Made by a program: the position numbers and the translations under genes. A stretch of 64,000 nt of DNA from Flaviaestuariibacter flavus (lineage in GTDB: Bacteria; Bacteroidota; Bacteroidia; Chitinophagales; Chitinophagaceae): positions 62,001-126,000 of the forward strand of contig NZ_SJZI01000046.1 in NCBI RefSeq assembly GCF_004337505.1. The letters are read 5' to 3'. This document shows positions 8,645-50,090 of the stretch, one piece after another. Positions within the stretch are counted from its first letter, which is position 1. Each line of letters begins with the position of its first letter. The notes under the pieces are model-generated. The model was given only the letters and a program-made list of their open reading frames with translations. It was not told where the DNA came from and ran no database searches.

Positions 8645-8660
8645 ATGTGCTAATGGGAAA

Positions 8661-8724
8661 ATGCGGTAATGCGGTAATGCGGTAATGCGGTAATGCGGTA
8701 ATGCGGTAATGCGGTAATGCGGTA
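8661..8724. repeat. Octamer array, eight perfect copies of ATGCGGTA
   Basis: Eight exact head-to-tail copies of the 8-bp unit ATGCGGTA, followed by a decaying copy. It lies between the divergently unrelated ends of the B12-binding gene (its promoter side) and the glycosyltransferase gene (its stop side). Confidence 0.95.
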
Positions 8725-8750
8725 ATGCAATGTGGTAGCGTACAAGGTAC

Positions 8751-11973: not shown

Positions 11974-12020
11974 ATGGGAGAATGTGCTAATCCCGCTTTG
12001 GCGGGGCAGGTGCTGCTATT

Positions 12021-12052
12021 GTGCTGGTGGGGTAGTGTGCTGGTGGGGTAGT
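12021..12052. repeat. 8-bp-periodic array (two 16-bp units)
   Basis: GTGCTGGT GGGGTAGT repeated exactly twice. The word TGCTGGTG is the reverse complement of CACCAGCA found in the array at 12138-12169, so the two arms can pair across ~90 nt. Confidence 0.85.
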
Positions 12053-12075
12053 GGAAGGTGTAATGTATAAGTTAC

Positions 12076-12137: not shown

Positions 12138-12169
12138 AGCACATCAGCACACCAGCACATCAGCACACT
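12138..12169. repeat. Octamer array AGCACATC/AGCACACC
   Basis: Four head-to-tail octamers AGCACATC, AGCACACC, AGCACATC, AGCACACT. The array runs directly into the promoter box of the deacetylase gene. Confidence 0.9.
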
Positions 12170-34821: not shown

Positions 34822-37800
34822 ATGAGATTGTTTCGTTTCCTGTTGTCTTTCGTTTTCGTAGGTTTTTCATTTACCGCTATTGCGCAACCCGTTATCACGA
34901 TGGATACAATTGAAACCGGGCCCTATGGCCAGGGGTCTTCAATTGCGGTACTCTTTCGCGTAAAAGGAGTGGTTAAATCCACAGCAACCTATGAACTCTA
35001 TCTTTCGAATTCTTCGGGCGCATTTTCAGGTGGGGGCACGCAGATAGGACAATACGCCGGACATTATACAACTTTCATTAATGGTGTAATCCCCAATGGG
35101 ACACTTGCGTCCGGGAGTTACAAGGTGATGGTTCGTTTGAAAGACGGAGCATCAACATTAGCTACTGCAATATCGTTTTACAACATCAACATAGTTTCTG
35201 CGGCTGGGCGGAGTGGCAATTTTATTACCGTAGAAGGACATGGATCTGCAATCGCAAGCAAGTGGCTATGGGTTGCTTGCTCCGGTGATCAATCAAGCGT
35301 TGATGTGTCAAATAATCTGCCAGTACCTGTATCAACAACAATCAAAAATGAATTCGATTCTATCGCATTCTTTGCGACCGATGTGCCGCGAACTTTTTCG
35401 ATCCCTGGCAACGGATTGATTACGATTGATCCGATAAAATCAGTTCATTACCGGTTGCTTAATAAAGTGGTCGAGTCTGGAAGCGGTGTTATTTCGACTC
35501 AAGGATGGTTTTTCGTCAACAACAAGACAGTTGGACCATTTTCTGCTGTTTTATCAGTAGTATGTTACAGCCCCGGAAGCCCGGGAAATTTCAGGTTCAA
35601 GGTTGATATTGATAGGGTAATAACAAGTTCTTCTCAGAGTGCATTCTATAACTTTCCCGGCTATACATATGAGGCAGATTGGGACGACCCAACGGCAAAT
35701 ACCGTATATACAATAATGGAGTTGGACTCTACAGCTGGAATTATGAGCCACGGTTATTCTATTACCTCATGTAATAGCACTGTTACCAATAATGGAACTG
35801 TATTTCAGAACTCGATCGGACCAGCTTTAAAAGTTCAAAACTTCAATCCTCCTTGTGATAACTCCGTCAGTTCAATCTCGCCAATTCGGGTCTTTGAAAA
35901 ACCAGAGACAAAGCTGGAAGGTCCAAACATTAAATGCTTCGGTCAACCTGTAACATTTGAAAATAATTCAACAGTAGGCGTCCAAGGAAACGCTACAACT
36001 CCTGGTTGTGTTGCGCCTACCATACTTTATGATTGGTATGTTGATGGAAGCAGAGTAGAACAGGACAAGCCGATTTCATTTGACTATATCACAAGTTCAC
36101 TTTCAATTGGACAGCATACTATTGTCCTTCGCCCGAAATATAATTCCAATAATATCAGCTGTGCACCTTCGAATGATACACTTATTATTTGTATCCAGCC
36201 GAAGCCCAATCCGGCCTTCCTGATGAACGGACAAAATGTGAACTCCATTTCCGGCTGTTCCCCGGTAGTGATAAATCTCACTAATCAAACAACCAACGTA
36301 ATCTGCGGTGGCGCGATAAGCTATATGTGGACGGTGGAGCTATTAGACGGGAGCCCGGCCCCATCAAGTGCATATCAGTTTACCAATAGCACCACAAACA
36401 GCTCGCAGCACCCGCAGATCACTTTCACGCAGCAAGGCACGTACTACATTAAACTTACTTCAGACAACGGTACCTGCGCCGCCGAAAGCATCCGGAAAGA
36501 AGTCATTGTGCTCGCAGCTACAGGCCTCACCATCCCCGGCCAGCAGCGCTACTGCGGCGTGCCGACGATCATTGACTTCGGTTCCAACAACAACCACAAG
36601 CCCAATTACAACAACGGCCTCGCCGCGGTTGGCGAAAGCTACCTGTGGACCGTCACCGGCGGCACCTACAACTTCGTGGGCACCACCAGCTCGGGCAGCC
36701 GCTATCCCAAGATCGAATTCACACAATATGGTACCTACACGGTGAGCCTGCAGTACATCAACTCCTGCGGTACTAAAAACGTTTCGCAGACCATCATCTT
36801 CGACCAGCCTGTTACCTCCAATGCCGGCGCCGACACAACCGTGTGCTATAATGTTACTTCCATTACGCTCTCTGCCAGCAGCACCGGCCCGGCCGGCATC
36901 ACCAGCGCCTGGACCAGCTCAGGCAGCGGATCGTTCTCACCAAACAATGCTCCCGGTACTACTTATACTTTCAGCAGCTCCGACCGCAACGTCAACGGCA
37001 ACAACATCACGCTTACCTATACGGTGACGCCGCCGGCAGGGTCGGCTTGTTTGCCGGCAAGCGATAGCCGCGTGGTAACGATCCGTCCGGAAAACCATAT
37101 CTCGAGCGCAAACAACAAAACGATTTGCGGCGGCAACTCCGTAGCGTATACCCCCACCGCCAGCCAGACCGGCAGCACGTTTACCTGGACCTCGGTAGTT
37201 TCGGGAACCGTAACCGGTAACAATGCTTCCGGCAGCGGCCCGATCAACGACGTTCTTAACAACAGCGGCCCCAACAGCGGCACGGTCACTTATACCATCA
37301 TCCCCGTAAAAGACGGTTGCGACGGTACCGCCTTTTCGTTTACGGTTACCGTGAAGCCGACACCGGTGATCGCCACGGCTGTCAAGACCGATCCCACCAC
37401 CTGCGGCGGCAGCGATGGTAAGATCACGCTCACCGGCCTCATTGCCGGGCAGTACACGGTTACATTTACGAAGAGCGGCTCGGGCAACCAGGGCCCGCTG
37501 ACCATTTCGGCTAACACATTGGGCGAGCTCGTTATCCCCAACCTGACGCAGGGCACTTACAGCAACTTTGTAGTAACGTTCAATAGTTGCGCATCGCCCG
37601 CTTTCGCCGGCCCTGTAACGCTTTCCGATCCGCCACTCCCGGCGGCGCCCGCCGTAGGCAGCAACAGTCCCATCTGCAGCGGCGCCACACTCAACCTCAC
37701 TGCCAGCTCGGTAACACCGGGTGTTGACTATACCTGGACCGGTCCTGGGATCAGCGGTAACAGCACACAGCAAAATCCCAGCATCGCCAACGCGCCAACA

Positions 37801-40800
37801 AGCGCTACCGGCACCTATACCGTTGTGGTAAATAAAGCCAACTGTAAGGTGCAGGCCACGGTCACTGTCACCGTTGACCCGACTCCGGTCGCCAACAGCG
37901 TGCCGGACGCGACCTTCTGCAACGGCACCGCTACCTCCGCCATCGCTCTTGCCGGCACGCCCGCTACGGGCACTGTTTACAGCTGGACCAACAGCAATAC
38001 CGCCATCGGCCTCGGCGCCACCGGCAACGGAAACATTCCATCCTTCAATGCCGTCAATGCCGGCAACACCGCGGCAACGGCTACCGTTACCATTACGCCG
38101 AAGTTCACCAACGGCGCAAACTCCTGCACCGGCACCGACAAGACCTTCACCATCACCATCAACCCAACGCCCGCCGCCGATGCGGTGACAGGACAGGTGC
38201 TCTGCGCCGGATCTCCTGTGGCAGCCATCAACTTCAGCGGCACCGCCACCAGCTACAGCTGGACCAACAGCAATACGAGCATCGGCCTTGGCGCCAGCGG
38301 CAACGGCAATATCCCTTCCTTTAACGCGGTGAACGGCGGTACGTCGGTGCAGACGGCCACGATCACCGTAACGCCGCGCTACACCGGTGGATCTGTGGGC
38401 TGCGATGGTCCCACCAAAACCTTTACGATCGTAGTGGTGCCCAATCCCACCGTTAATAATGTAAGCGCACAAACGGTCTGCGATGGGGCCAGCACGAGCG
38501 CGGTCAACTTCAGCGGATCGGTCAGCGGCACGGTATACAACTGGACGAACAACAACCCCGCCATCGGTCTTGCGGCCAGCGGCACGGGCAATATCCCTGC
38601 CTTTACCGCCACCAACGGCGGCACTACAGCAGTGACCGCCACCATTACGGTAACGCCTTCTTTCACGAGCAACGGAATTACGTGTACCGGCGCACCCAAA
38701 ACATTTACGATCACGGTCAACCCGACGCCTTCAGTGAATAACAGCACTGCGCAGACCCTCTGCGCCGGCACCGCCACTACGGCCGTCGGCTTCAGCGGCA
38801 CTGCGGGCGCTACCTTCGACTGGACAAACAGCAATACCGCCATCGGCCTTGCCGCTTCGGGCTCCGGAAACATCGCGACCTTCACCGCCGCCAACGCTAC
38901 CAATGTGCCGCTTGCGGCAACCATCACGGTAATCCCGCGGATCGGCAACTGTGCCGGCCCGGTTAAGACCTTCACCATCACGGTGAACCCACGCCCGGTG
39001 ATCACCAACCTGGCGCAGGCGATGTGCTCGAACAATACCTTTAACGGCACACCTGTACACGGCGTACCCGCCAGCACCGTGGTGCCTGCCGGTACCACTT
39101 ACACCTGGGGCACGCCGGTGAGCAGTCCCGGTGGCGCCATCACAGGTGGCAGCGCCCAGTCGACGCCGGTGACCACCATTGGCCAGACCCTGATCAACAC
39201 CACCACCGCCAGCGCCACGCTGACCTATACGATCACGCCGGTGTCGGGCGCCGACGGCAACTGCCCCGGTGATCCGTTTACGGTTACCGTTACCGTGAAC
39301 CCGCAGCCCGGCATCTCCGACCGCAACGTCACAGCCTGCAGTGGCACGGCCAACAACCTGACGCCCACGGGCGTTCCGGCAAGCACTTCGTATTCGTGGG
39401 GGCTTCCCGTTATTACGCCTTCGGGCGCACTGGCCGGTGCTACTGCCGGGTCGGGTGCTTCGGCCATCAACCAAACGCTTACCAACAGCACCAACGCGCC
39501 TGCTACGGCGGTGTATACGGTAACGCCCACCGCGGGCACCTGCGGCAACGGCACCTTCACCATCACCCTTACGGTAAATCCGAAGCCGGCGATCGCCAGC
39601 TATACTCCCGCAGATATCTGCTCGGGTGATGCCTTTACAGTAACACCGACGCAAGGCACGCCGGCCGGTAACGTGGTTCCCGCGGGCACCACCTATTCCT
39701 GGACCGTAAGTGCGCCTTCCGGCGTCGGTGGAGCAGTTGCGGGCAACTCCGCCACTGGTGCTATCAGCCAGACGCTAACCAACAGCACAACGACGCTGCA
39801 GACCGTAGTTTATACTGTTACGCCCACGTCGGGTACCTGCGCCGGCGGTACGTTTACCATCACGGTGCGTGTGGCCCCGCGCCCCGTGGTTGCCAATGCA
39901 AGCGCCACCATCTGCAGCGGTGCTGCCTTTGATGCAACGCCTTCGGGTGTTCCGACAGGCACCACCTACACCTGGTCGGCGCCGGTGATCGCTCCTTCGG
40001 GCGCCATCACGGGTGCCGCGGCACAGGCTTCGGCGGTAAGCACCGTGGGACAAACACTGACGAATACCACCAATAGTGCTGCTACAGCTACCTACACGGT
40101 AACGCCGAAGTCGGGCGCCTGCGAGGGCCAGCCCTTCACGGTTACGGTGACGGTGCAGCCCAAGGCAGTCATCGCCAACTATACCGATGCGATCTGCAGC
40201 GGTGCTTCCTTCACTATTACTCCTGCCGACGGACAGCCTACGGCGGCCACGGTGATCCCGGCCGGCACCACCTATACCTGGGGAGTACCGGCAAGCAACC
40301 CGGCGGGCGCTATCAGCGGCGGGGCAGCACAGGCGAGCGGTGTCAGCACGATCGGCGCTGCACTTACCAACGGCACCAATACTCCCGCTGCGCTCACCTA
40401 TACGGTTACCCCGAAGAGCGGCAGTTGCAACGGCGCAATGTTCACCGTTGCAGTCACCGTAAATCCGAAGCCCGTAATCCCCGCGCAGAGCGCCATTACC
40501 TGTAGCGATGCCACGTTCACGGTAAGCCCGGTGAACGGTGCTGCGGGTACCATCGTTCCCGGGGGAACCACCTATAGCTGGAGCGTGCCTACGGTTACCG
40601 GCGGTATGACCGGCGGCACTGCCGGCAATGGACAGACGAGCATTTCGGGTACGCTCAACAATCCCACCAACGTAGCGCAGACAGCCACTTATACCGTAAC
40701 GCCGGTTTCGGGTGCGGCCGGCAGTTGCCCGGGTGCGCCGTTCACCGTAACGGTAACTGTAAATCCGCAGCCGGGCATCTCGAGCCAAACGGCCTCCATC

Positions 40801-43800
40801 TGCAGCGGCGGCACCTTTACGGTTAATCCCGCCGGCGCCCCCGCCAACACCCAGTATACCTGGGGCGCGCCTGTGAGCACACCTGCCGGTGCGGTTACCG
40901 GCGGCTCGGCGCAAAGCAGCCAGGGTTCAATCAGCCAAACGCTGACCAATACGACCAACACGCCGGCAACGCTTACTTACAGTGTGACACCGACTGCAGG
41001 CTCCTGCGGTAATAGCGCTTTCTCCGTGACTGTTTCCGTAAACCCGAAACCTAAGATGCCGGCACTCGCAGCGGATATATGCGGCGGCGATGCCTTCAGT
41101 ATTTCACCTGTCGATAACCCGCCCGGAACGATCGTTCCGGCTAATACGAAATACAGCTGGACCGCTCCGGCCATCGTGCCTGCATCAGCAATTACCGGCG
41201 GCTCCGCGCAAAACAATATGGCGAGCATCGGTCAGACCCTGAGCAATACGACTAATGCCAGCGCCACCGCCACCTACACGGTAACGCCAACTTCGGGTGA
41301 TGCCGGCTCCTGCGTCGGCAATGCTTTCCAGGTGACGGTTACCGTGCGCCCACGCCCGGCAGTTGCCAACAAAACTGCGGCCATCTGCAGCGGCGGCACT
41401 TTCTCGGAAACGCCCGCCAATAGCGGTGCCGACATCGTACCCGCGGGCACTACCTACAGCTGGAGCACGCCGGTCGTTACCGGCGGCATCACCGGCGGTG
41501 CCGCGGGCACGGCACAGACCAGCATTACGGGCACGCTCATCAACCCGACGTCGGCCGTGCAAACAGCGACCTACACGGTGACGCCTAAATCGGGCACCTG
41601 CGAAGGCTCGCCCTTTACGGTAACCGTAACGGTCAAGCCCACCCCCGTGGTGACGGCACAAACCGCCACGATCTGCAGTGGTGCCGCCTTCGGCATCACG
41701 CTTGCCGACAACCCACCCGCAACGGTGCTGCCTTCGGGTACCACCTTCAGCTGGACGGCCCCGGCGATCAACCCGGCTTTGGCCATCACCGGCGCTTCGG
41801 CACAAACCGCGCAGACGGCCATCGGCCAGGCGCTGACCAACGTCACGAATGCACCGGCTACGGCCACCTATACAGTTACACCTTCGTACGATGGCTGTAC
41901 GGGCAGCCCCTTCACGGTGACCGTGACGGTGAACCCGAAGCCGGTGATCGGCAACCAGACGATGATCACCTGTAGTAATACGGGCTTCAGCTTTACACCG
42001 GCGAATGCCCAGCCCACGACGATCGTTCCCGGCGGCACCACCTACAGCTGGAGCGCGCCGGTGGTAACCGGCGTTATGACCGGCGGCGCGGCCGGCACGG
42101 CACAGGCCAGCATCACGGGCACGCTCATCAACCCCACAAATGTGGCCCAGACCGCTACGTATACGGTCAGCCCGGTATCGGGTGCGGCCGGCAACTGCCC
42201 GGGTGCCGACTTCCAGCTTGTTGTTACCGTGAACCCCCAGCCCGGTATCAGCGCACAGGCGGCAACCATCTGCTCGGGTGCTCCGTTTGCCGTGAGCCCC
42301 GCGGGCGCACCGGCAAACACCACCTATACATGGGGTACACCGGTAAGCAACCCGGTTGGCGCCATCACAGGTGGTTCGGCACAGAGCAATCAGAACACGA
42401 TCGGCCAGACGCTGACCAACAATACCAACACACCGGCAACACTTACCTATAGTGTAACGCCTACGGCCGGCTCTTGCGGGAACAACGCATTTGCTGTAAC
42501 GGTTACGGTTAATCCGAAACCGGTAGTGACCGGCACCGTGGCCGACATCTGCAGCGGCGAAACCTTTGCCGCCACGCCCGCCAATGGAGCGCCTGCCGGA
42601 ACCATCATCCCGGCAAACACCACTTATATGTGGGGCGTTCCGGTAAGCAACCCTTCGGGTGCGATCACCGGCGGCACAGCGCAGATGGCGCAGGCCACCA
42701 TCAGCGGAACATTGGTCAATACAACGAATGCGGTGGCGACGCTCACCTATACCGTCACGCCTACTTCGGGTGATGCCGGCAACTGCGTGGGCGCTTCTTT
42801 TACAACAGTGGTCAGCGTGCGCCCGCGCCCGGCTATTGCCAACAAAACCGATAATATCTGCAGCGGCGGCACATTTACCGTAAGCCCCGCGAACGCCGGT
42901 GCCGATATTGTTCCTGCAGGTACTACCTACAGCTGGAGTGTCCCGGTGGTTACCGGCGGCATCACCGGCGGCGCGGCCGGCAGTGGACAAACGAATATTT
43001 CGGGTACGCTCAACAACCCAACCAGCGGGCCGCAGACGGCAACCTATACGGTGACGCCGAAGTCGGGCGCCTGCGAGGGTGCACCCTTTACGATCACGGT
43101 TACCGTCAACCCGACGCCGGTGCTGCCGGCGCAGGTGGCGGAGATCTGCAGCGGCGCTACGTTCAACGTGGCACCTGCCGACAACCCGCCGGCCGCAATC
43201 GTGCCGACAGGTACAACCTATAGCTGGCCTGTTCCCGCCAGCAACCCGGCAGGTGCGGTCACCGGCGGCTCGGCGCAGAGCGGGCAGGCAGCCGTCAGCC
43301 AGGCGCTGACCAACACAACGAACGCGGTGGCGACACTCACCTATACGGTGACGCCTGCCGTGTCGGGCTGCGCCGGCCAGGCCTTTGCAGTGACGGTGAC
43401 GGTCAACCCCAAACCCGTCATCGGTCCGAAAGACCTTGAGATATGCAGCGGCCAGAACTTCAGCTATACCCCGGCCAACAACGCCCCGGCTACCATCGTG
43501 CCCACCGGCACTACGTATAGCTGGAGCGCGCCTGTAATTACCGGTGGTCTTACAGGTGGCGCTCCCGGTACGGCGCAAACCACGATCGGCGGCAACCTGG
43601 TCAACCCGACCAACGTTCCGCAGACCGCTACCTATACGGTGATCCCTACCTCGGGCGCCGCGGGCAATTGCGTGGGTGCTGCCTTCACCGTCACGGTCAC
43701 CGTCAACCCGCAGCCGGGCATTACCGACCAGGTAGCCACGATCTGCTCGGGTACGGCCTTCACCGTGAGTCCGGCGGGCGCGCCTGCCAATACCGTGTAC

Positions 43801-46800
43801 ACCTGGACCGTCCCTGTCAGCAACCCCGCCGGTGTTGTTACCGGCGGCTCCGCACAGGCCACCCCGCAGCCGAACATCAGCCAGCCGCTGACCAATACAA
43901 GCAATGTGCCCGCGAGCATCGTCTATACGGTAACGCCAACCGCGGGCTCCTGCGGAAACATTGCCTTCAATGTAACATTGACCGTGAACCCGACACCCGT
44001 GGTGAGCGGAACCGTTGCCGAGATCTGCAGCGGCGACGCCTTTGCCGCAACGCCGGTGAACGGAACGCCGGCAGGAACGATCATTCCCGCGAATACAAGC
44101 TATAGCTGGAGCACCCCGGTAAGCAACCCCGCCGGTGCCATCACCGGCGGCGCGGCCGCAAGCAGCCAGGCCGCCATCGCCGGAACGCTGACCAACACCA
44201 CGAATGCGTCGGCTACGCTCACCTATACGGTAACACCCGTTTCGGGTGACGCGGGCAGCTGCGCCGGCGCTTCCTTCCCGGCTGTGATTACGGTGCGTCC
44301 GCGCCCGCGTCTTGCCGACAAGACACTGACCGTGTGCAGCGGAGCCCCCTTTACGGTGACGCCGGCTAACGCACCGCCGGGGGATATCGTGCCTGCGAAC
44401 ATTACCTATAGCTGGAGTGCGCCTGCCGTCACCGGTGGCATCACCGGCGGCACTTCGGGCACTGCCCAGGCCTCCATCAGCGGCACCCTGCTGAACCCAA
44501 CCTCCACGGTGCAAACCGCCACGTATACCATCACGCCGAAGGCCGGCGACTGCGAGGGACCTGCCTTTACGCTGACGGTAACCGTGAACCCGACACCGCT
44601 GGTGCCGGCACAGGTGGCCGAGATCTGTAGCGGTTCTACGTTTGCCGTAAACCCTGCCGACAACCCACCGGGTGTTGTTGTGCCGGCGGGGACGACCTAC
44701 AGCTGGCCCGCGCCGGTAAGCAACCCGGCAGGAGCCATCGCAGGCGGTTCTGCCCAAAGCGGCCAGGGTGGCATCAGCCAGGTGCTGACCAACACCACAA
44801 ATGCAGTGGCTACGCTTATCTATACAGTGACGCCTTCGATCGGCAACTGTTCGGGCACTCCGTTTACAGTAACTGTAACGGTCAACCCGCGCCCGCTGAT
44901 CGGGCCGATGAGTGATATTGTTTGCTCGGGTGCTTCCTTTAATGCAGCGCCGGTGAACGCCGCCCCGGGCACGATCGTTCCGGCCAACACGACCTTTAGC
45001 TGGGGCGCGCCGACCAGCAACCCGGCCGGTGCGCTTACCGGCGGCTCGGCACAAAGCGGTCAGCCTTTCATCAGCCAGACACTGATCAACAACACCATCG
45101 CCGTGGCCACCGCAACTTACACGGTAACGCCCACTTCGGGTGCCGCAGGCGGCTGCGTCGGTGCGCCGTTCACGGTTACCGTTACGGTGAAGCCGCAGCC
45201 CAGTATCCCCGACCAGCAGGCGACGATCTGCAGCGGCGGTAACTTCAGCATCACACCTGCCAACGCACCGGTGGGCACTGTGTATACCTGGGCGCTGCCC
45301 ACGAGCAACCCTGCGGGCGCCGTCACCGGCGGTGCGGCCGGCAACAGCCAGCCGGGCATCAGCGGCACACTTACCAACGTGACCAATGCGCCGGCTGTGT
45401 TGCTGTACACCGTAACACCGGTTGCTTCTGATTGCTCCAACAGCACCTTCACCGTAGCGGTGACGGTGAATCCGAAACCTGTGATCGGCAACATGGCGGC
45501 TGTGACCTGCTCGGATGTTGCCTTTGATATCGCGCCTGCAAACAACCAGCCCACCACCATCGTGCCGGTGAATACTACCTACACGTGGACGGCACCGGTG
45601 AGCAGCCCGGCGGGCGCCCTTACGGGTGGCTTGGCACAGGTGGCGCCGCAGCCTTCCATCAGCCAGCTGCTGGCCAATACTACGGCAGCGCCGGCTACCA
45701 TGACCTATACGGTAACCCCCGTTTCGGGTGACGCTGGTAACTGCCCGGGCGCTCCGTTCACGGCTGTGGTAACCGTCAACCCCGATGCCCGCGCGGTGTT
45801 CGTGCCGACGGACACGATCGAGTGCCCGCCCTTCGTAATCACACCCGCAGTGGTAGGCCTGCAAACCTTCCCGCAGGCCAACAGCACCTATAGCTGGTAT
45901 GCCAACGGGGTGCTCATCGGAAACGGCACTACCTTTCCGGGCTATACGATCGCGAACGAGAACGACTCCATCGACATCAAGCTGGTGGCCGGCTCGCAGT
46001 ATGGCTGTAAAGCCGACAGCATGGTGTTCCGCTTCTTCTCGCACAAGCTTCCGCACCCCGACTTCACCCTGGCGCCCCCGAACGGTTGCGGCCCGCTGTC
46101 GGTGAACATCACCAACACAACGCCGTACACCGACTTCTTCCAATACCAGTGGAACTTCGGCCAGGGCCAGTCGTCCACGAACGTGCAGCCCGGCGTCGTT
46201 GTCTTCCCCCCGAACCCGACCTATGGCGATACGACCTATATCGTGACGCTCAAGGCCTGGAACGAGTGCGACACGGTTACGATCACGAAAAATGTGCAGG
46301 TGGCTTCACGGCCCAAGGCACTCTTTACTCCCGATCGCACCGTGGGATGCTCGCCGATGCGGGTAAACTTCTCGAATACCTCGCTTGGTATTGGTGTTAC
46401 CTACACGTGGATCTGGGATGACGGCACCAGCCAGAACAGCCCCACCCGCGATATGGTGACGCATACCTTCAACACATCGGTGCAGGATACCTTCTATGTA
46501 AAGCTGGTGGCGCATAACCAGTGTGGCGATGATACAGCCACCTATGCCATCGTTGTTTCGCCGAACCCGATCCAGCTCTTTATGGCGGTTAACGGAACAG
46601 AGGCAAACGGCTGCGCACCGCACACCGTTAACTTCATCAACAACACCATCGGCGCCACCGGCTTCCAGTGGGACTTTGGTGACGGCAATACACTGAGCAC
46701 AACGCGGGGTATCGATACGGTAACGCATACCTATCTTGCCGCCGGCACGTATACGGTGCAGCTGAAAGCCTTCAACGGTTGTACGGATACGACTATGTTC

Positions 46801-49065
46801 CTTACGATCAACGTATTCCCGAAGCCCGACGCATCCTTTGTAGCCAGTCGCTACACGGCCTGCCTCGGCGATACGATCCAGTTCACCAACACCTCGCAGG
46901 GCGCGACCTCCTATCTCTGGAAGTTCGGCGACGGCGATGTGACAACGCTTGTAATCCCGGCGCATGCCTGGAGCACACCGGGCGTTTACAATGTGACGCT
47001 GGTGGCCTACCGCATCAACGGTCCGGGCAATGTGTGTCCCGATTCCGTTAAAGTACCGGTGCAGATCGTAGCCAGCGTACCGGGCGGCATTACGGTAAGC
47101 GACTCGCTGACCAACTGCGTGCCCTTCACGGTTACGTTCAGCAATCCCAACCAGCCGGCTTCGGTGGTGACCTGGGATTTCGGCGACGGCTTCACCGGCA
47201 CCGGCAACGTGGTGACGCACACCTACCAGCGTGCGGGCACCTTCCTGGCGCAGCTCACGAGCCTCGCGCCGGGCGGCTGTACCTACACGGCGCAGCGTAC
47301 CATCCGCGTCAATGCGCCCGCCGGTACCTTGCAGTATACAGGAGGCTACGTGTGCGGCCCCCGCGCCGTGCGCTTCGATGCCACCGTAAGCGGCACCGAT
47401 ACGCTTATCTGGAACTTCGGTAACGGTGTAACCCAATCGACGCTTTCGCCGTTTGTTTATTACCAGTATCCCAACCCGGGGCTATACGTGCCTTCGGTTA
47501 CCCTGGCTTCCGCTTCGGGCTGCCGCGTGCCGGTAACAGGTGTAGACACGATCAAGGTCGATCGCCTTGTGACCGGCTTCACCGCGGCGCAAAACCGCCT
47601 GTGCGGATCCACGCCCGTTACCTTCAGCGATACTTCGCATGTGTTCTTCGGAGTACGTGAAGTGCGCTGGGATTTTGGCGACAACACGAGCGGTGTCGGC
47701 TCCGTGGTGCAGCATACCTACACCAGCCCCGGTCAGTACAACATCCGCCAGGTGGTGATCAGCAACAGCGGCTGCTCCGACACGGTTTACAAAGTGGTAG
47801 ACGTGGTAGTGTTTGGTATCCCCACAGCCGCGATCAGCGCCGACCCGCTCGGGTGTACCCGTATTGCCACGACACTCACCGCCAACGTGCAATCGGCCGA
47901 TCCCATTAGCATTTATGAGTGGACGGTGAACGGTACGATCCAGTCGCGTGTGAACCCGTTTGTAACCACGTTTACGGCAGGCGGCACTTACAACATCCGC
48001 CTCATCGTGGGTACGGTGAACGGTTGCTTTGATACAGCCTTCCATACCATCACGGTACGGCCTTCGCCGATCGTAACGGCAACCAACAGCAACGACCTCT
48101 GCCTCGGCCAGTCGCAGCAGCTCAATGCCTCCGGCATCGGCGTGGTGGATTGGCAATGGTCGCCGGTAGATGGCCTGAGCTGCACCACCTGCCCGAACCC
48201 GCTGGCAACACCCAGGGCCACTACCACGTATGTCGTGACCGGCACGAACGGCTTCGGCTGCCCCGGCTACGACACGGTGCTGCTCTCGGTGCATGGCCCG
48301 ATCAGCATGGTGGTATCGCCGAGCGACAGCATTTGCATCGGCGACACCCTGCTCCTGCTGGCCAGCGGTGCTACCAGCTACCAGTGGACGCCCAACCAGG
48401 ACATCAGCAACACTTCGGTGCCCAACCCGTCGGTATGGCCGCGGGTAAGCACTACCTACCGCGTGGTGGGCTTCGACGGATTCAATTGCTTTACCGACAC
48501 AGCCTTCGTGACTGTGGGTGTGGGGCAATACCCGACCGTTAACCTGGGCCCCGACCTGGTGCTGGCCACCGGCACCCGCCAGTTGCTGACGCCTGTGGTG
48601 ACCAACGGCCCCATTCGCACCTGGAGCTGGTCGCCTGCCGCCAATCTCTCGTGCGCCAACTGTCCGCAGCCGGTGGCGGAGATCCGGAACGACGTGTTGT
48701 ATACGGTTACCGTAACCACCGCTTACGGATGCTCCGACACCGACACAATGCAGATCAAAGCCTTCTGCCGCGATGTGCAGGTGTTCCTGCCCAACGCCTT
48801 CAGCCCCGACGGCGATGGCGTCAACGATGTATTCATGGTGCAGGCTTCGGGCATTGCTACGGTAAAGACGTTCCGCATCTTCAACCGCTGGGGCGAGCTG
48901 GTGTTCGAGAAGAACGCGGTGCAGCCCAACGATCCGCGCTTCGGTTGGGACGGCCGCGTGGGTGGCGTAGCGGCTGCGCCGGATGTATTCGTGTATACCG
49001 TAGAAGTACTGTGCGAGAACGGAACTCCCTATACATATAAAGGAAACGTAACCATTCTAAAATGA
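34822..49065 (+). CDS. Giant repetitive T9SS surface protein with gliding-motility-type C-terminal domain
   Basis: A 4747-residue protein. Order: signal peptide (to AIAQ, ~22); a unique, AT-rich-encoded region (~23-510); Ig/SprB-like modules (~510-1020); four ~92-residue repeats of one subtype (1021-1390); 23 PKD-like ~98-residue repeats of a second subtype (1391-3654); about eight PKD domains with WDFGDG-type motifs (3655-~4360); three short Cys-containing modules; and a type B T9SS sorting domain from VFLPNAFSPDGDGVND (4654) to the end, with FNRWGELVF. It is exported by the T9SS and probably works as a long fibrous adhesin. Its stop overlaps the next start as ATGA. Confidence 0.92.
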   Translation: MRLFRFLLSFVFVGFSFTAIAQPVITMDTIETGPYGQGSSIAVLFRVKGVVKSTATYELYLSNSSGAFSGGGTQIGQYAGHYTTFINGVIPNGTLASGSYKVMVRLKDGASTLATAISFYNINIVSAAGRSGNFITVEGHGSAIASKWLWVACSGDQSSVDVSNNLPVPVSTTIKNEFDSIAFFATDVPRTFSIPGNGLITIDPIKSVHYRLLNKVVESGSGVISTQGWFFVNNKTVGPFSAVLSVVCYSPGSPGNFRFKVDIDRVITSSSQSAFYNFPGYTYEADWDDPTANTVYTIMELDSTAGIMSHGYSITSCNSTVTNNGTVFQNSIGPALKVQNFNPPCDNSVSSISPIRVFEKPETKLEGPNIKCFGQPVTFENNSTVGVQGNATTPGCVAPTILYDWYVDGSRVEQDKPISFDYITSSLSIGQHTIVLRPKYNSNNISCAPSNDTLIICIQPKPNPAFLMNGQNVNSISGCSPVVINLTNQTTNVICGGAISYMWTVELLDGSPAPSSAYQFTNSTTNSSQHPQITFTQQGTYYIKLTSDNGTCAAESIRKEVIVLAATGLTIPGQQRYCGVPTIIDFGSNNNHKPNYNNGLAAVGESYLWTVTGGTYNFVGTTSSGSRYPKIEFTQYGTYTVSLQYINSCGTKNVSQTIIFDQPVTSNAGADTTVCYNVTSITLSASSTGPAGITSAWTSSGSGSFSPNNAPGTTYTFSSSDRNVNGNNITLTYTVTPPAGSACLPASDSRVVTIRPENHISSANNKTICGGNSVAYTPTASQTGSTFTWTSVVSGTVTGNNASGSGPINDVLNNSGPNSGTVTYTIIPVKDGCDGTAFSFTVTVKPTPVIATAVKTDPTTCGGSDGKITLTGLIAGQYTVTFTKSGSGNQGPLTISANTLGELVIPNLTQGTYSNFVVTFNSCASPAFAGPVTLSDPPLPAAPAVGSNSPICSGATLNLTASSVTPGVDYTWTGPGISGNSTQQNPSIANAPTSATGTYTVVVNKANCKVQATVTVTVDPTPVANSVPDATFCNGTATSAIALAGTPATGTVYSWTNSNTAIGLGATGNGNIPSFNAVNAGNTAATATVTITPKFTNGANSCTGTDKTFTITINPTPAADAVTGQVLCAGSPVAAINFSGTATSYSWTNSNTSIGLGASGNGNIPSFNAVNGGTSVQTATITVTPRYTGGSVGCDGPTKTFTIVVVPNPTVNNVSAQTVCDGASTSAVNFSGSVSGTVYNWTNNNPAIGLAASGTGNIPAFTATNGGTTAVTATITVTPSFTSNGITCTGAPKTFTITVNPTPSVNNSTAQTLCAGTATTAVGFSGTAGATFDWTNSNTAIGLAASGSGNIATFTAANATNVPLAATITVIPRIGNCAGPVKTFTITVNPRPVITNLAQAMCSNNTFNGTPVHGVPASTVVPAGTTYTWGTPVSSPGGAITGGSAQSTPVTTIGQTLINTTTASATLTYTITPVSGADGNCPGDPFTVTVTVNPQPGISDRNVTACSGTANNLTPTGVPASTSYSWGLPVITPSGALAGATAGSGASAINQTLTNSTNAPATAVYTVTPTAGTCGNGTFTITLTVNPKPAIASYTPADICSGDAFTVTPTQGTPAGNVVPAGTTYSWTVSAPSGVGGAVAGNSATGAISQTLTNSTTTLQTVVYTVTPTSGTCAGGTFTITVRVAPRPVVANASATICSGAAFDATPSGVPTGTTYTWSAPVIAPSGAITGAAAQASAVSTVGQTLTNTTNSAATATYTVTPKSGACEGQPFTVTVTVQPKAVIANYTDAICSGASFTITPADGQPTAATVIPAGTTYTWGVPASNPAGAISGGAAQASGVSTIGAALTNGTNTPAALTYTVTPKSGSCNGAMFTVAVTVNPKPVIPAQSAITCSDATFTVSPVNGAAGTIVPGGTTYSWSVPTVTGGMTGGTAGNGQTSISGTLNNPTNVAQTATYTVTPVSGAAGSCPGAPFTVTVTVNPQPGISSQTASICSGGTFTVNPAGAPANTQYTWGAPVSTPAGAVTGGSAQSSQGSISQTLTNTTNTPATLTYSVTPTAGSCGNSAFSVTVSVNPKPKMPALAADICGGDAFSISPVDNPPGTIVPANTKYSWTAPAIVPASAITGGSAQNNMASIGQTLSNTTNASATATYTVTPTSGDAGSCVGNAFQVTVTVRPRPAVANKTAAICSGGTFSETPANSGADIVPAGTTYSWSTPVVTGGITGGAAGTAQTSITGTLINPTSAVQTATYTVTPKSGTCEGSPFTVTVTVKPTPVVTAQTATICSGAAFGITLADNPPATVLPSGTTFSWTAPAINPALAITGASAQTAQTAIGQALTNVTNAPATATYTVTPSYDGCTGSPFTVTVTVNPKPVIGNQTMITCSNTGFSFTPANAQPTTIVPGGTTYSWSAPVVTGVMTGGAAGTAQASITGTLINPTNVAQTATYTVSPVSGAAGNCPGADFQLVVTVNPQPGISAQAATICSGAPFAVSPAGAPANTTYTWGTPVSNPVGAITGGSAQSNQNTIGQTLTNNTNTPATLTYSVTPTAGSCGNNAFAVTVTVNPKPVVTGTVADICSGETFAATPANGAPAGTIIPANTTYMWGVPVSNPSGAITGGTAQMAQATISGTLVNTTNAVATLTYTVTPTSGDAGNCVGASFTTVVSVRPRPAIANKTDNICSGGTFTVSPANAGADIVPAGTTYSWSVPVVTGGITGGAAGSGQTNISGTLNNPTSGPQTATYTVTPKSGACEGAPFTITVTVNPTPVLPAQVAEICSGATFNVAPADNPPAAIVPTGTTYSWPVPASNPAGAVTGGSAQSGQAAVSQALTNTTNAVATLTYTVTPAVSGCAGQAFAVTVTVNPKPVIGPKDLEICSGQNFSYTPANNAPATIVPTGTTYSWSAPVITGGLTGGAPGTAQTTIGGNLVNPTNVPQTATYTVIPTSGAAGNCVGAAFTVTVTVNPQPGITDQVATICSGTAFTVSPAGAPANTVYTWTVPVSNPAGVVTGGSAQATPQPNISQPLTNTSNVPASIVYTVTPTAGSCGNIAFNVTLTVNPTPVVSGTVAEICSGDAFAATPVNGTPAGTIIPANTSYSWSTPVSNPAGAITGGAAASSQAAIAGTLTNTTNASATLTYTVTPVSGDAGSCAGASFPAVITVRPRPRLADKTLTVCSGAPFTVTPANAPPGDIVPANITYSWSAPAVTGGITGGTSGTAQASISGTLLNPTSTVQTATYTITPKAGDCEGPAFTLTVTVNPTPLVPAQVAEICSGSTFAVNPADNPPGVVVPAGTTYSWPAPVSNPAGAIAGGSAQSGQGGISQVLTNTTNAVATLIYTVTPSIGNCSGTPFTVTVTVNPRPLIGPMSDIVCSGASFNAAPVNAAPGTIVPANTTFSWGAPTSNPAGALTGGSAQSGQPFISQTLINNTIAVATATYTVTPTSGAAGGCVGAPFTVTVTVKPQPSIPDQQATICSGGNFSITPANAPVGTVYTWALPTSNPAGAVTGGAAGNSQPGISGTLTNVTNAPAVLLYTVTPVASDCSNSTFTVAVTVNPKPVIGNMAAVTCSDVAFDIAPANNQPTTIVPVNTTYTWTAPVSSPAGALTGGLAQVAPQPSISQLLANTTAAPATMTYTVTPVSGDAGNCPGAPFTAVVTVNPDARAVFVPTDTIECPPFVITPAVVGLQTFPQANSTYSWYANGVLIGNGTTFPGYTIANENDSIDIKLVAGSQYGCKADSMVFRFFSHKLPHPDFTLAPPNGCGPLSVNITNTTPYTDFFQYQWNFGQGQSSTNVQPGVVVFPPNPTYGDTTYIVTLKAWNECDTVTITKNVQVASRPKALFTPDRTVGCSPMRVNFSNTSLGIGVTYTWIWDDGTSQNSPTRDMVTHTFNTSVQDTFYVKLVAHNQCGDDTATYAIVVSPNPIQLFMAVNGTEANGCAPHTVNFINNTIGATGFQWDFGDGNTLSTTRGIDTVTHTYLAAGTYTVQLKAFNGCTDTTMFLTINVFPKPDASFVASRYTACLGDTIQFTNTSQGATSYLWKFGDGDVTTLVIPAHAWSTPGVYNVTLVAYRINGPGNVCPDSVKVPVQIVASVPGGITVSDSLTNCVPFTVTFSNPNQPASVVTWDFGDGFTGTGNVVTHTYQRAGTFLAQLTSLAPGGCTYTAQRTIRVNAPAGTLQYTGGYVCGPRAVRFDATVSGTDTLIWNFGNGVTQSTLSPFVYYQYPNPGLYVPSVTLASASGCRVPVTGVDTIKVDRLVTGFTAAQNRLCGSTPVTFSDTSHVFFGVREVRWDFGDNTSGVGSVVQHTYTSPGQYNIRQVVISNSGCSDTVYKVVDVVVFGIPTAAISADPLGCTRIATTLTANVQSADPISIYEWTVNGTIQSRVNPFVTTFTAGGTYNIRLIVGTVNGCFDTAFHTITVRPSPIVTATNSNDLCLGQSQQLNASGIGVVDWQWSPVDGLSCTTCPNPLATPRATTTYVVTGTNGFGCPGYDTVLLSVHGPISMVVSPSDSICIGDTLLLLASGATSYQWTPNQDISNTSVPNPSVWPRVSTTYRVVGFDGFNCFTDTAFVTVGVGQYPTVNLGPDLVLATGTRQLLTPVVTNGPIRTWSWSPAANLSCANCPQPVAEIRNDVLYTVTVTTAYGCSDTDTMQIKAFCRDVQVFLPNAFSPDGDGVNDVFMVQASGIATVKTFRIFNRWGELVFEKNAVQPNDPRFGWDGRVGGVAAAPDVFVYTVEVLCENGTPYTYKGNVTILK
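37882..38991 (+). repeat. Four in-frame ~92-residue repeats, subtype 1
   Basis: Each encodes a domain with a Cys near the start, then (Y/F)(S/D/N)WTN(S/N)N and AIGL(G/A)A(S/T)G(S/N)GNI, ending TFTI(T/V)V(N/V)P. They are distinct from the longer array that follows. Confidence 0.85.
38992..45783 (+). repeat. Higher-order repeat: five-domain blocks, four full copies and a 3-domain partial
   Basis: Twenty-three PKD-like repeats fall into blocks starting at 38992, 40468, 41938, 43411 and 44890. The four complete blocks are 1476, 1470, 1473 and 1479 bp; the last is 894 bp (three units). Within each block the five unit types keep their order and their diagnostic ends: type 1 SGAxGxC, type 2 starting QPGI and ending AGxCGN, type 3 GDAGxC, type 4 KSGxCEG, type 5 a variable one (the first block's type 3 lacks GDAG). 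The unit-level pattern is clear from the translation. Confidence 0.85.
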
Positions 49066-50090
49066 GGTGTATGAAAAAGTTATTGACGGGATTGACGATT
49101 TTTTGCGGTGCCTTCGCGGCCCGCGCCCAGGATGTGAACTTTTCGCAGTTTTACGAGCTGCCGATGCTGCGCAACCCGGCACTGGCGGGCAACTTCCGCG
49201 GCGACATCAAAGCGGTGGGTGCCTTCCGCAGCCAGTGGGGAAGCGTTACCACCCCTTATAAAACGATGGCCCTGGGCACCGAAATGCGCTTTGGTGTGGG
49301 CGGCTCCGATAACTATCTCTCGATAGGTGCGCAGGTCACCAACGATGTGGCGGGCGATTCGAAGCTGAGTCGCACGCAGGTGCTGCCGGTGCTTGCTTTT
49401 CACAAGTCGCTCAACGCGGAGCAGGACGCTTATCTTTCGGCGGGCTTTATCGGCGGCTTTGTGCAGCAACGCTACGATGCCTCGGGCCTCACCTTTGCCG
49501 ATCAGTTTGTGAACGGTGCTTACAGTCCGATGAACCCGACGCGGCAGCGCCTGCCCGGTTCCAACGTAACCTATATGGATGCGGGCGCGGGCATCACCTA
49601 CAGCAATGTGATGGGCTACGATACGCGTTATTATATAGGCGCCGCGCTGTTTCATTTCAACCAGCCGCGTGTGGCCTTCGATAATGCCAACGATGTGCGG
49701 CTCAACCAAAAAGTGATGATCAATGCCGGTCTGTCCACGCCAACGAGCGATAAGGACCGCGTCATTCTTTATGGTGACTATTTCTCACAAGGAGGCCATC
49801 ACCAGGCGCAGGGCGGGGTGTTGTACCGGCATGCACTCGTAGAGGAAGACGCCGACTACGGCGTGGCGCTTTCGCTCGGCGGCTTTTACCGCTGGAACGA
49901 CGCCGTGGTGCCCGTGGTGAAGCTGGATTATTACAACTTCGCCTTCGGGCTTACTTACGACGTCAACATGAGTAAGCTGACAAAGGCTTCGAGCGCGCGC
50001 GGCGGCTTTGAACTGACCGTGTCGTACAGCAACTTTCTGAATATCCGTAACTCGTCGTCGATGAAGGTGCGGTGCCCGGTAAGTTTCTAG
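49062..50090 (+). CDS. PorP/SprF-family type IX outer-membrane protein
   Basis: A 342-residue protein with a signal peptide (to AARAQ, ~23) and the PorP/SprF landmarks: QDVNFSQFYELPMLRNPALAG, FRSQWGSVTTPYKTMALG, GAGITYSN and a C-terminal GGFELTVSY. These proteins form outer-membrane barrels needed to export and attach type B-CTD cargo. The ATG overlaps the stop of the giant gene (ATGA), so the pair is translationally coupled and this is its probable cognate anchor. A second in-frame ATG at 49071 is possible. Confidence 0.92.
   Translation: MRCMKKLLTGLTIFCGAFAARAQDVNFSQFYELPMLRNPALAGNFRGDIKAVGAFRSQWGSVTTPYKTMALGTEMRFGVGGSDNYLSIGAQVTNDVAGDSKLSRTQVLPVLAFHKSLNAEQDAYLSAGFIGGFVQQRYDASGLTFADQFVNGAYSPMNPTRQRLPGSNVTYMDAGAGITYSNVMGYDTRYYIGAALFHFNQPRVAFDNANDVRLNQKVMINAGLSTPTSDKDRVILYGDYFSQGGHHQAQGGVLYRHALVEEDADYGVALSLGGFYRWNDAVVPVVKLDYYNFAFGLTYDVNMSKLTKASSARGGFELTVSYSNFLNIRNSSSMKVRCPVSF

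Follow-up and report, generated by a model that had tools for sequence, protein, structure and literature searches.

How a bacterial surface protein of several thousand residues comes by its length, and whether the order of its repeated domains records that growth, are questions raised by a 64,000-nucleotide stretch of Flaviaestuariibacter flavus DNA (contig NZ_SJZI01000046.1, positions 62,001 to 126,000; hereafter the window). It contains a giant gene whose product includes an array of 23 PKD_5 units, U1 to U23. A preliminary description, made from the sequence, had proposed that this array is a higher-order repeat that grew by duplication of whole five-domain blocks and whose copies are recent or homogenised. 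The five-domain structure and the mode of growth are borne out here, and the recent date is contradicted. The gene and its array are laid out as follows.

34822..49065, plus strand: giant PKD/PKD_5 protein with a type IX secretion system (T9SS) CHU_C C terminus; open reading frame (ORF) of 4747 amino acids (aa)
38986..45777, plus strand: array U1-U23, 23 PKD_5 units with period-five higher-order structure (residues 1389-3652)
38986..40461, plus strand: block U1-U5, 1476 bp, weak register
40462..41931, plus strand: block U6-U10, 1470 bp, core
41932..43404, plus strand: block U11-U15, 1473 bp, core
43405..44883, plus strand: block U16-U20, 1479 bp, core
44884..45777, plus strand: partial block U21-U23, 894 bp, weak register; domain types in the order p4, p0, p1, as in the trio of units of a same-genus protein, L102

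The array lies where the preliminary description had placed it (38992..45783), although its start is 6 bp further upstream, and the block starts at U1, U6, U11, U16 and U21 (38986, 40462, 41932, 43405 and 44884) reproduce exactly the spacings of 1476, 1470, 1473 and 1479 bp and the final 894 bp reported there. The diagnostic residues also return in every fifth unit: QPGI..AG[ST]CGN in U2, U7, U12 and U17 (degraded in U22), GDAGxC..VRP in U8, U13 and U18 (U23 being without VRP), and RPxxANK..KSGxCEG in U9 and U14 (altered in U4 and U19). When all units were aligned against all, same-position units resembled one another more than neighbours did, with a mean identity of 64.4% between units five apart (lag 5), as compared with 51.7, 55.2, 53.9 and 50.8% at lags 1-4, and 59.7% at lag 10. 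The modulo-five contrast (z 7.6) was matched in none of 2,000 shuffles of the order of all 23 units, nor in any of 2,000 for U2-U23 or for U7-U23, and the same shuffle test revealed no excess at periods 2-4 or 6-8 in the window array. Leave-one-out assignment to the five position classes (p0 to p4, a block beginning with p4) was correct for 19 of the 23 units, all but U1, U3, U4 and U23, as against a mean of 4.8 and a maximum of 13 in 1,000 shuffles. The register is uneven along the array: lag-5 pairs starting at U1-U5 are 49-63% identical, those within U6-U20 58-81%, and those ending at U21-U23 58-59%.

Insertions and deletions follow the same rhythm. An 8-residue deletion is specific to the class U2/7/12/17/22, and a 3-residue insertion to the classes U1/6/11/16/21 and U8/13/18/23. 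These class-specific changes, which recur every fifth unit with two exceptions, together with the lag-5 contrast, support the proposed growth by duplication of five-domain blocks; the duplicated segment comprises several whole domains, as befits multi-domain block duplication. The tree of units is less eloquent. It brings together U9/U14/U19, U13/U18, U15/U20 with U10, U6/U11 with U16 and, weakly, U2/U7/U12/U17/U22, and it leaves U1, U3, U4, U5, U8, U21 and U23 away from their class; it is weakly resolved, with stars on only 2 of its 20 inner branches, and labelling by class requires 8 changes where the minimum for five classes is 4. The preliminary description had named a clustering of neighbours, rather than of positions modulo five, as the pattern that would speak against it; no such clustering was found, but only part of the units is grouped by class. 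The tree also joins U6, U11 and U16 to U9, U14 and U19 with support 92/88, and two of the five classes therefore share an older origin. The five-domain block structure is thus real, and it is clear only in about three blocks (U6-U20).

How old are these duplications? At fourfold synonymous sites the identity at lag 5 is 0.423, within the range of lags 1-4 (0.377-0.426), the saturation expectation from composition being 0.297. U7 and U12, which are 78% identical in amino acids, share only 13 of 48 such sites, and the longest exact repeat in the giant gene measures 26 bp. The claim of recent or homogenised copies is contradicted by this saturation, and for the window array the idea of late copying or conversion was rejected on the synonymous sites and the lack of long exact repeats. 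Late copying or gene conversion in the manner of alpha satellites, with block number varying among strains, would have accounted for the near-constant block length, and such copying does leave traces in other loci (labelled L): in L143, 230 bp are repeated exactly at an offset of 1392 bp and some units five apart are as much as 98% alike, and exact repeats of 62 and 574 bp occur in L083 and L078. In the window, by contrast, lag-5 fourfold identity equals that at other lags, and within the core fourfold identity is alike for same- and different-position units, both in the columns that carry most of the register (0.48 and 0.447) and elsewhere (0.418 and 0.403). Recent or ongoing homogenisation is therefore largely refuted for this array, and we consider it very improbable. 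Because the longest exact repeat is 26 bp, little exact homology remains for easy gain or loss of blocks at present.

What has preserved the register while synonymous sites lost it? Most of the signal sits in columns 1-13, 26-35 and 88-97 of the 106 alignment columns, and there is little or none in variable columns such as 21-23, 62-66, 98-99 and 101-103. This clustering, measured by a Moran statistic that is independent of the choice of clusters, was reached in none of 2,000 permutations and holds after correction for variability. Within the clusters, core units of the same position are 67.8% identical and those of different positions 32.0%. Leave-one-out assignment on cluster columns was correct for 21 of 23 units, a descriptive figure since the clusters were picked from the same data; on the remaining columns it was correct for 9 of 23, which 71 of 1,000 shuffles equalled. 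With so much of the register gathered in three clusters of columns, the sequences point to an old block duplication that would later have been held by purifying selection at these columns. Cysteines at columns 15 and 95 are invariant in 23 of 23 units; one cluster ends just before column 15 and another includes column 95. The pair suggests one disulfide per domain or one between neighbours. Transfer of the PKD strand topology to the PKD_5 unit was tried and rejected (hhalign probability 3.4%, E 0.013; best solved chain E 0.58).

The gene was also compared with its relatives in other organisms, and the following parts of the protein are needed for that comparison.

34822..37071, plus strand: N-terminal region, aa 1-750, matched in whole or in part by relatives
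38161..38985, plus strand: three PKD_5-like units adjoining the array, outside the five-domain register
45778..49062, plus strand: 1095-aa tail with PKD and other domains and CHU_C at its end, conserved along almost its entire length in 20 related proteins

The three adjoining units belong to another subtype, with a spacing near 280 bp. A search with residues 1-660 over 394 genomes of the family gave matches at E <= 1e-15 in 27 genomes, the window's own included, and 22 proteins were then compared for the tail and the N-terminal match. Fifteen of them, which come from 14 genomes of other genera, combine a nearly full-length tail (34-51% identity) with a match to the N-terminal region (26-38%): L076, L078, L079, L083, L084, L085, L087, L088, L090, L091, L093, L094, L095, L096 and L126, the best N-terminal piece starting at residue 277 in L083, L087, L088 and L126. 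L077 and L097 have the N-terminal match with the tail in pieces only, and L098 (twice), L132, L143 and L182 are other proteins. A comparison of 68 open frames from loci of the genus, in which 12 of the 17 other genus genomes were represented by partial or other loci, added five full tails (53-56%), in L101 (genome G010), L102 (G002), L103 (G012), L104 (G003) and L105 (G014), so that at least 5 of these 17 genomes carry the tail protein; their N-terminal match is weaker (26-28%, starting at residue 252-292). Tail and N-terminal match are thus shared by 20 related proteins.

It is the part between these ends that varies. Judged from the start positions of the N-terminal match, it measures about 2900 aa in the window, about 735-920 aa in the five genus relatives and from about 470 (L096) to 2670 aa (L078) in relatives from other genera. 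A run of at least nine PKD_5-like units is found in none of the five L101-L105 proteins. L102 has exactly three units directly before the tail (aa 1293-1589 of a 2684-aa frame), with best matches to U6 (p4, 64%), U7 (p0, 65%) and U18 (p1, 62%); their order, p4-p0-p1, is that of the start of a block and of the end of the window array (U21-U23). L101 has one close PKD_5 unit, and the remaining matches in L101 and L103-L105 are distant. Within the genus, PKD_5 unit number hence differs from one species to another (23 for the window, 3 for L102), and the L102 trio is either an unexpanded ancestor or a contracted array; expansion in the window lineage, rather than loss in its kin, appears to be the likelier course. 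In the other genera, a comparison of chunks of each protein against the whole gave dominant internal offsets of about 360-366 aa in L076, L078, L083 and L088, of 258 aa in L085, L087 and L090, of 462 aa in L126, of 90 aa in L077 and of a mixed 84/258 aa in L097, the window having 492 aa. The exact repeats mentioned above fall at one block in L083 and at two in L078. Since relatives have block sizes of their own and some carry such exact repeats, the middle segment has been refilled by lineage-specific block amplification, partly recent, and it looks like a replaceable, adjustable stalk.

Is five a number peculiar to this gene? A survey of PKD_5 arrays was made over 146 loci (L076-L221), picked among the matches listed by PKD_5 score and match number, or for an N-terminal match, and not by periodicity, though some 1377-bp spacings were noticed at choosing. 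There were 37 runs of at least nine units including the window, or 35 arrays after removal of two duplicate records, three of them (L174, L175, L177) from records named to phylum only. A clear period (z >= 3) was present in 12 of the 35 and absent from the other 23. It was five in nine (the window, L182, L183, L143, L132, L170, L199, L126 and L100), three in L169 and L203, and two in L108; L100 stands just at 3.0, L098 (2.8) and L186 (2.7) are borderline, and L099 has a z of 0.4, or 2.9 with other run borders. By their registers the nine period-five arrays fall into about five lineages, and collapsing lineages leaves 5 of 8 at period five, with a probability of about 0.002 (periods 2-8 equal) or 0.01 (periods 2-6) under what are crude nulls. 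Other Ig-like arrays of the same bacterial family had no period in any of 11 cases (8 Ig_7 and 3 HYR, from 18 loci), and the comparison with 12 of 35 PKD_5 arrays gives a Fisher p of 0.02, that with period five alone (9 of 35) a p of 0.06.

Such recurrence, in some five lineages that share no register, is what one would expect if a turn of the stalk made every fifth PKD_5 domain face alike, and selection on the facing residues created or maintained the period. Such a geometric rule nevertheless appears distinctly unlikely. L169, kin of the period-five arrays L132 and L170, has period three, L203 has three and L108 two; the blocks in relatives of the window gene measure about 258 and 366 aa; and in 66 comparisons of column profiles the correlations lie mainly inside lineages, none of them linking the window array to any of the other 11. 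The prediction of a five-domain rule was, moreover, fixed beforehand and tried on further genomes of the phylum, where no period at z >= 3 was seen in any of 8 arrays outside the order (from seven genomes of other orders or families of the class). A universal five-domain rule gained no support from them. Five is favoured only within PKD_5 arrays of this order, a scope set by the survey, which requires at least nine PKD_5-like units and misses mixed-domain blocks such as the 258- and 366-aa ones.

The five classes might alternatively have arisen once, in a common ancestor from which all period-five arrays inherited one five-domain module. Class p0 does have a close match in Sediminibacterium (unit 12 of L126 and U12, 71% identity), p4, p0 and p1 stand in order in the same-genus L102, and registers are consistent within {L143, L132, L170} and {L098, L100} (best cyclic shift rank 1 of 120) and within {L182, L183, L199} (ranks 3, 2 and 10). 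The window's best register shifts against L132 and L170 disagree (2 and 4), though that between L132 and L170 is 0, and a joint tree groups units largely by array (16 label changes; shuffled mean 52). A single origin is on this balance no better a prospect than the geometric rule.

Individual arrays show the process at different stages. The 28 units of L132 and the 23 of L170 pair off one by one except at a single gap, which spans exactly five units; in L169, from the same lineage, three of the five classes are repeated and the remaining two persist near the end only. L143 includes five-unit blocks that were copied recently: a stretch of its units is 80-98% alike at lag 5, with raised synonymous identity and the 230-bp exact repeat. 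L182 resembles the window, with 68% mean lag-5 identity and background synonymous identity. The five-unit step between L132 and L170, the recent copies of L143 and the old arrays of L182 and the window show that within the PKD_5 family whole five-domain blocks have been copied and have later become frozen. The opposite mode exists too: the PKD_5 array of L222 (genome G975), with a mean unit identity of about 79-85% depending on lag and units up to 100% alike, has no higher-order period and represents homogenisation of single units. The window's own genome encodes two further PKD_5 proteins (L098, contig C42; frames of 1856 and 2796 aa) about 9 kb apart, a pair also present in two genus relatives (L099, L100), with 14-unit arrays of weak period five, and a relative has an 11307-aa open frame with a PKD_5 match (G389:C1, near 2391000).

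Taken together, these observations are probably best explained by old five-domain block growth of a PKD_5 stalk segment framed by conserved ends, with its register held by selection. The conserved N-terminal part and 1095-aa tail would frame a replaceable middle segment serving as a stalk, which in the window lineage would have been lengthened by tandem duplication of a PKD_5 block of about 1.47 kb, leaving at least three clear blocks and eroded ends. The duplications would be old enough for synonymous sites and many variable residues to have lost the register, most of which a limited set of residues would carry: those of the linker and first strand, columns 26-35 and the segment with the second conserved cysteine. 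Five domain types would be held in fixed order, most simply by purifying selection, and relatives would fill the same place with a short segment or with blocks of other sizes. Because they do so, the role of the segment is likely to lie in stalk length and in presenting one fixed series of loop surfaces again and again.

Several results weigh against this account. Units U1-U5 and U21-U23 fit the register poorly when all columns are used (the core assigns 4 of 8 correctly), and in the weak first block U4, of class p2, bears the deletion of class p0, and U3, of class p1, is without its own class's insertion. The register is not confined to the clusters: columns 44, 50, 51, 70 and 72 have some signal, and outside the clusters core identity is still 69.2% for same-position and 57.6% for different-position units. 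Mosaic conversion was checked by indirect means alone. By class mean the third unit of L102 is equally close to p0 and p1 (56% each), and the trio could be a contracted array. The chunk comparison found no strong long period in L079, L084, L091 or L093-L096, and the T9SS type B sorting domain model TIGR04131 scores 33.3 on the giant protein, just below its NCBIfam cut-off of 35. A wider proposition seems to us unlikely: that Chitinophagales PKD_5 stalks favour five as a structural or functional cycle, that selection fixes the order of five loop sets after the neutral trace is mostly gone, and that the middle of this gene can be swapped for three- or four-domain cycles of other types.

The remaining features, at the end of the gene, bear on how the protein may reach and hold the surface.

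48787..49056, plus strand: CHU_C type IX secretion signal domain, aa 4656-4745
49062..50090, plus strand: gene for a type IX secretion membrane protein of the PorP/SprF family; overlaps the giant gene's stop codon

PKD_5 (PF19406) scores 888.6 bits on the giant protein over 24 stretches (Pfam gathering score 25), PKD_4 and PKD domains are also found by Pfam, and CHU_C (PF13585) scores 48 bits at the C terminus (cut-off 27). The product of 49062-50090 matches TIGR03519 with 163.1 bits (cut-off 90.55). Type B proteins bind PorP-like partners (PMC9143113; PMC10994853), and the adjoining PorP/SprF-family gene is as expected for such a protein. Judged by architecture only, the protein would be an anchored, putative adhesin. 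The source assembly comprises 52 contigs at 85.78% completeness; with exact repeats in the gene of 26 bp at most, the array is unlikely to have been misassembled. A minus-strand ORF of 1652 aa (41185-46143) overlaps the array and is in all likelihood no gene but a side effect of the codon usage that recurs through the GC-rich repeats (63.5% GC). Elsewhere in the window, a perfect tandem array of the 8-mer AATGCGGT (8.6 copies) occupies 8660-8728, and two mismatch-free 16-bp tandem pairs lie at 12020-12053 and 12138-12168, about 85 bp apart.

Giant bacterial surface proteins tend to be regarded as strings of interchangeable domains. In this one, information held in the order of the domain types has outlasted synonymous sites, and counterparts of the gene in other species and genera have a short segment or different blocks inside conserved ends. 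With old stages (the window, L182) beside recent ones (L143, L083, L078), it offers a testable system for the evolution of stalk length and surface pattern. In the super-repeats of the muscle proteins titin and nebulin, a fixed series of domain types is likewise repeated in order, and these super-repeats match the filament lattice, whereas no partner lattice is known for the window array. The SprB-like type IX gliding adhesins (PMC9143113) are similar in their C-terminal T9SS domain and PorP/SprF-like partner, a likeness of architecture alone, and gliding is not known for the window organism. The giant adhesin of Mobiluncus mulieris also has a very long Ig-like array, thought to have grown through duplication of domains, and one of two related species has 21 domains more (PMC10619420); the passages of that paper dealing with it describe no higher-order period, the words 'pattern' and 'periodic' being absent from them. 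Among the open-access papers listed in the literature searches, no title or abstract beginning describes a higher-order period in PKD arrays of Bacteroidota. Domain repeats often grow by several domains at once, frequently in mid-array, and some families prefer a block size, such as seven in nebulin (Bjorklund, Ekman and Elofsson 2006, PMC1553488). The window array likewise has several domains copied together; it differs in being made of bacterial PKD_5 domains, a term that does not occur as 'PKD' in the main text of that paper, and in its blocks of five. It is thus a bacterial case of a known mode, the block duplication of domain repeats, distinguished by an unusual degree of position-specific conservation and by a preference for five that recurs within the PKD_5 arrays of one order.

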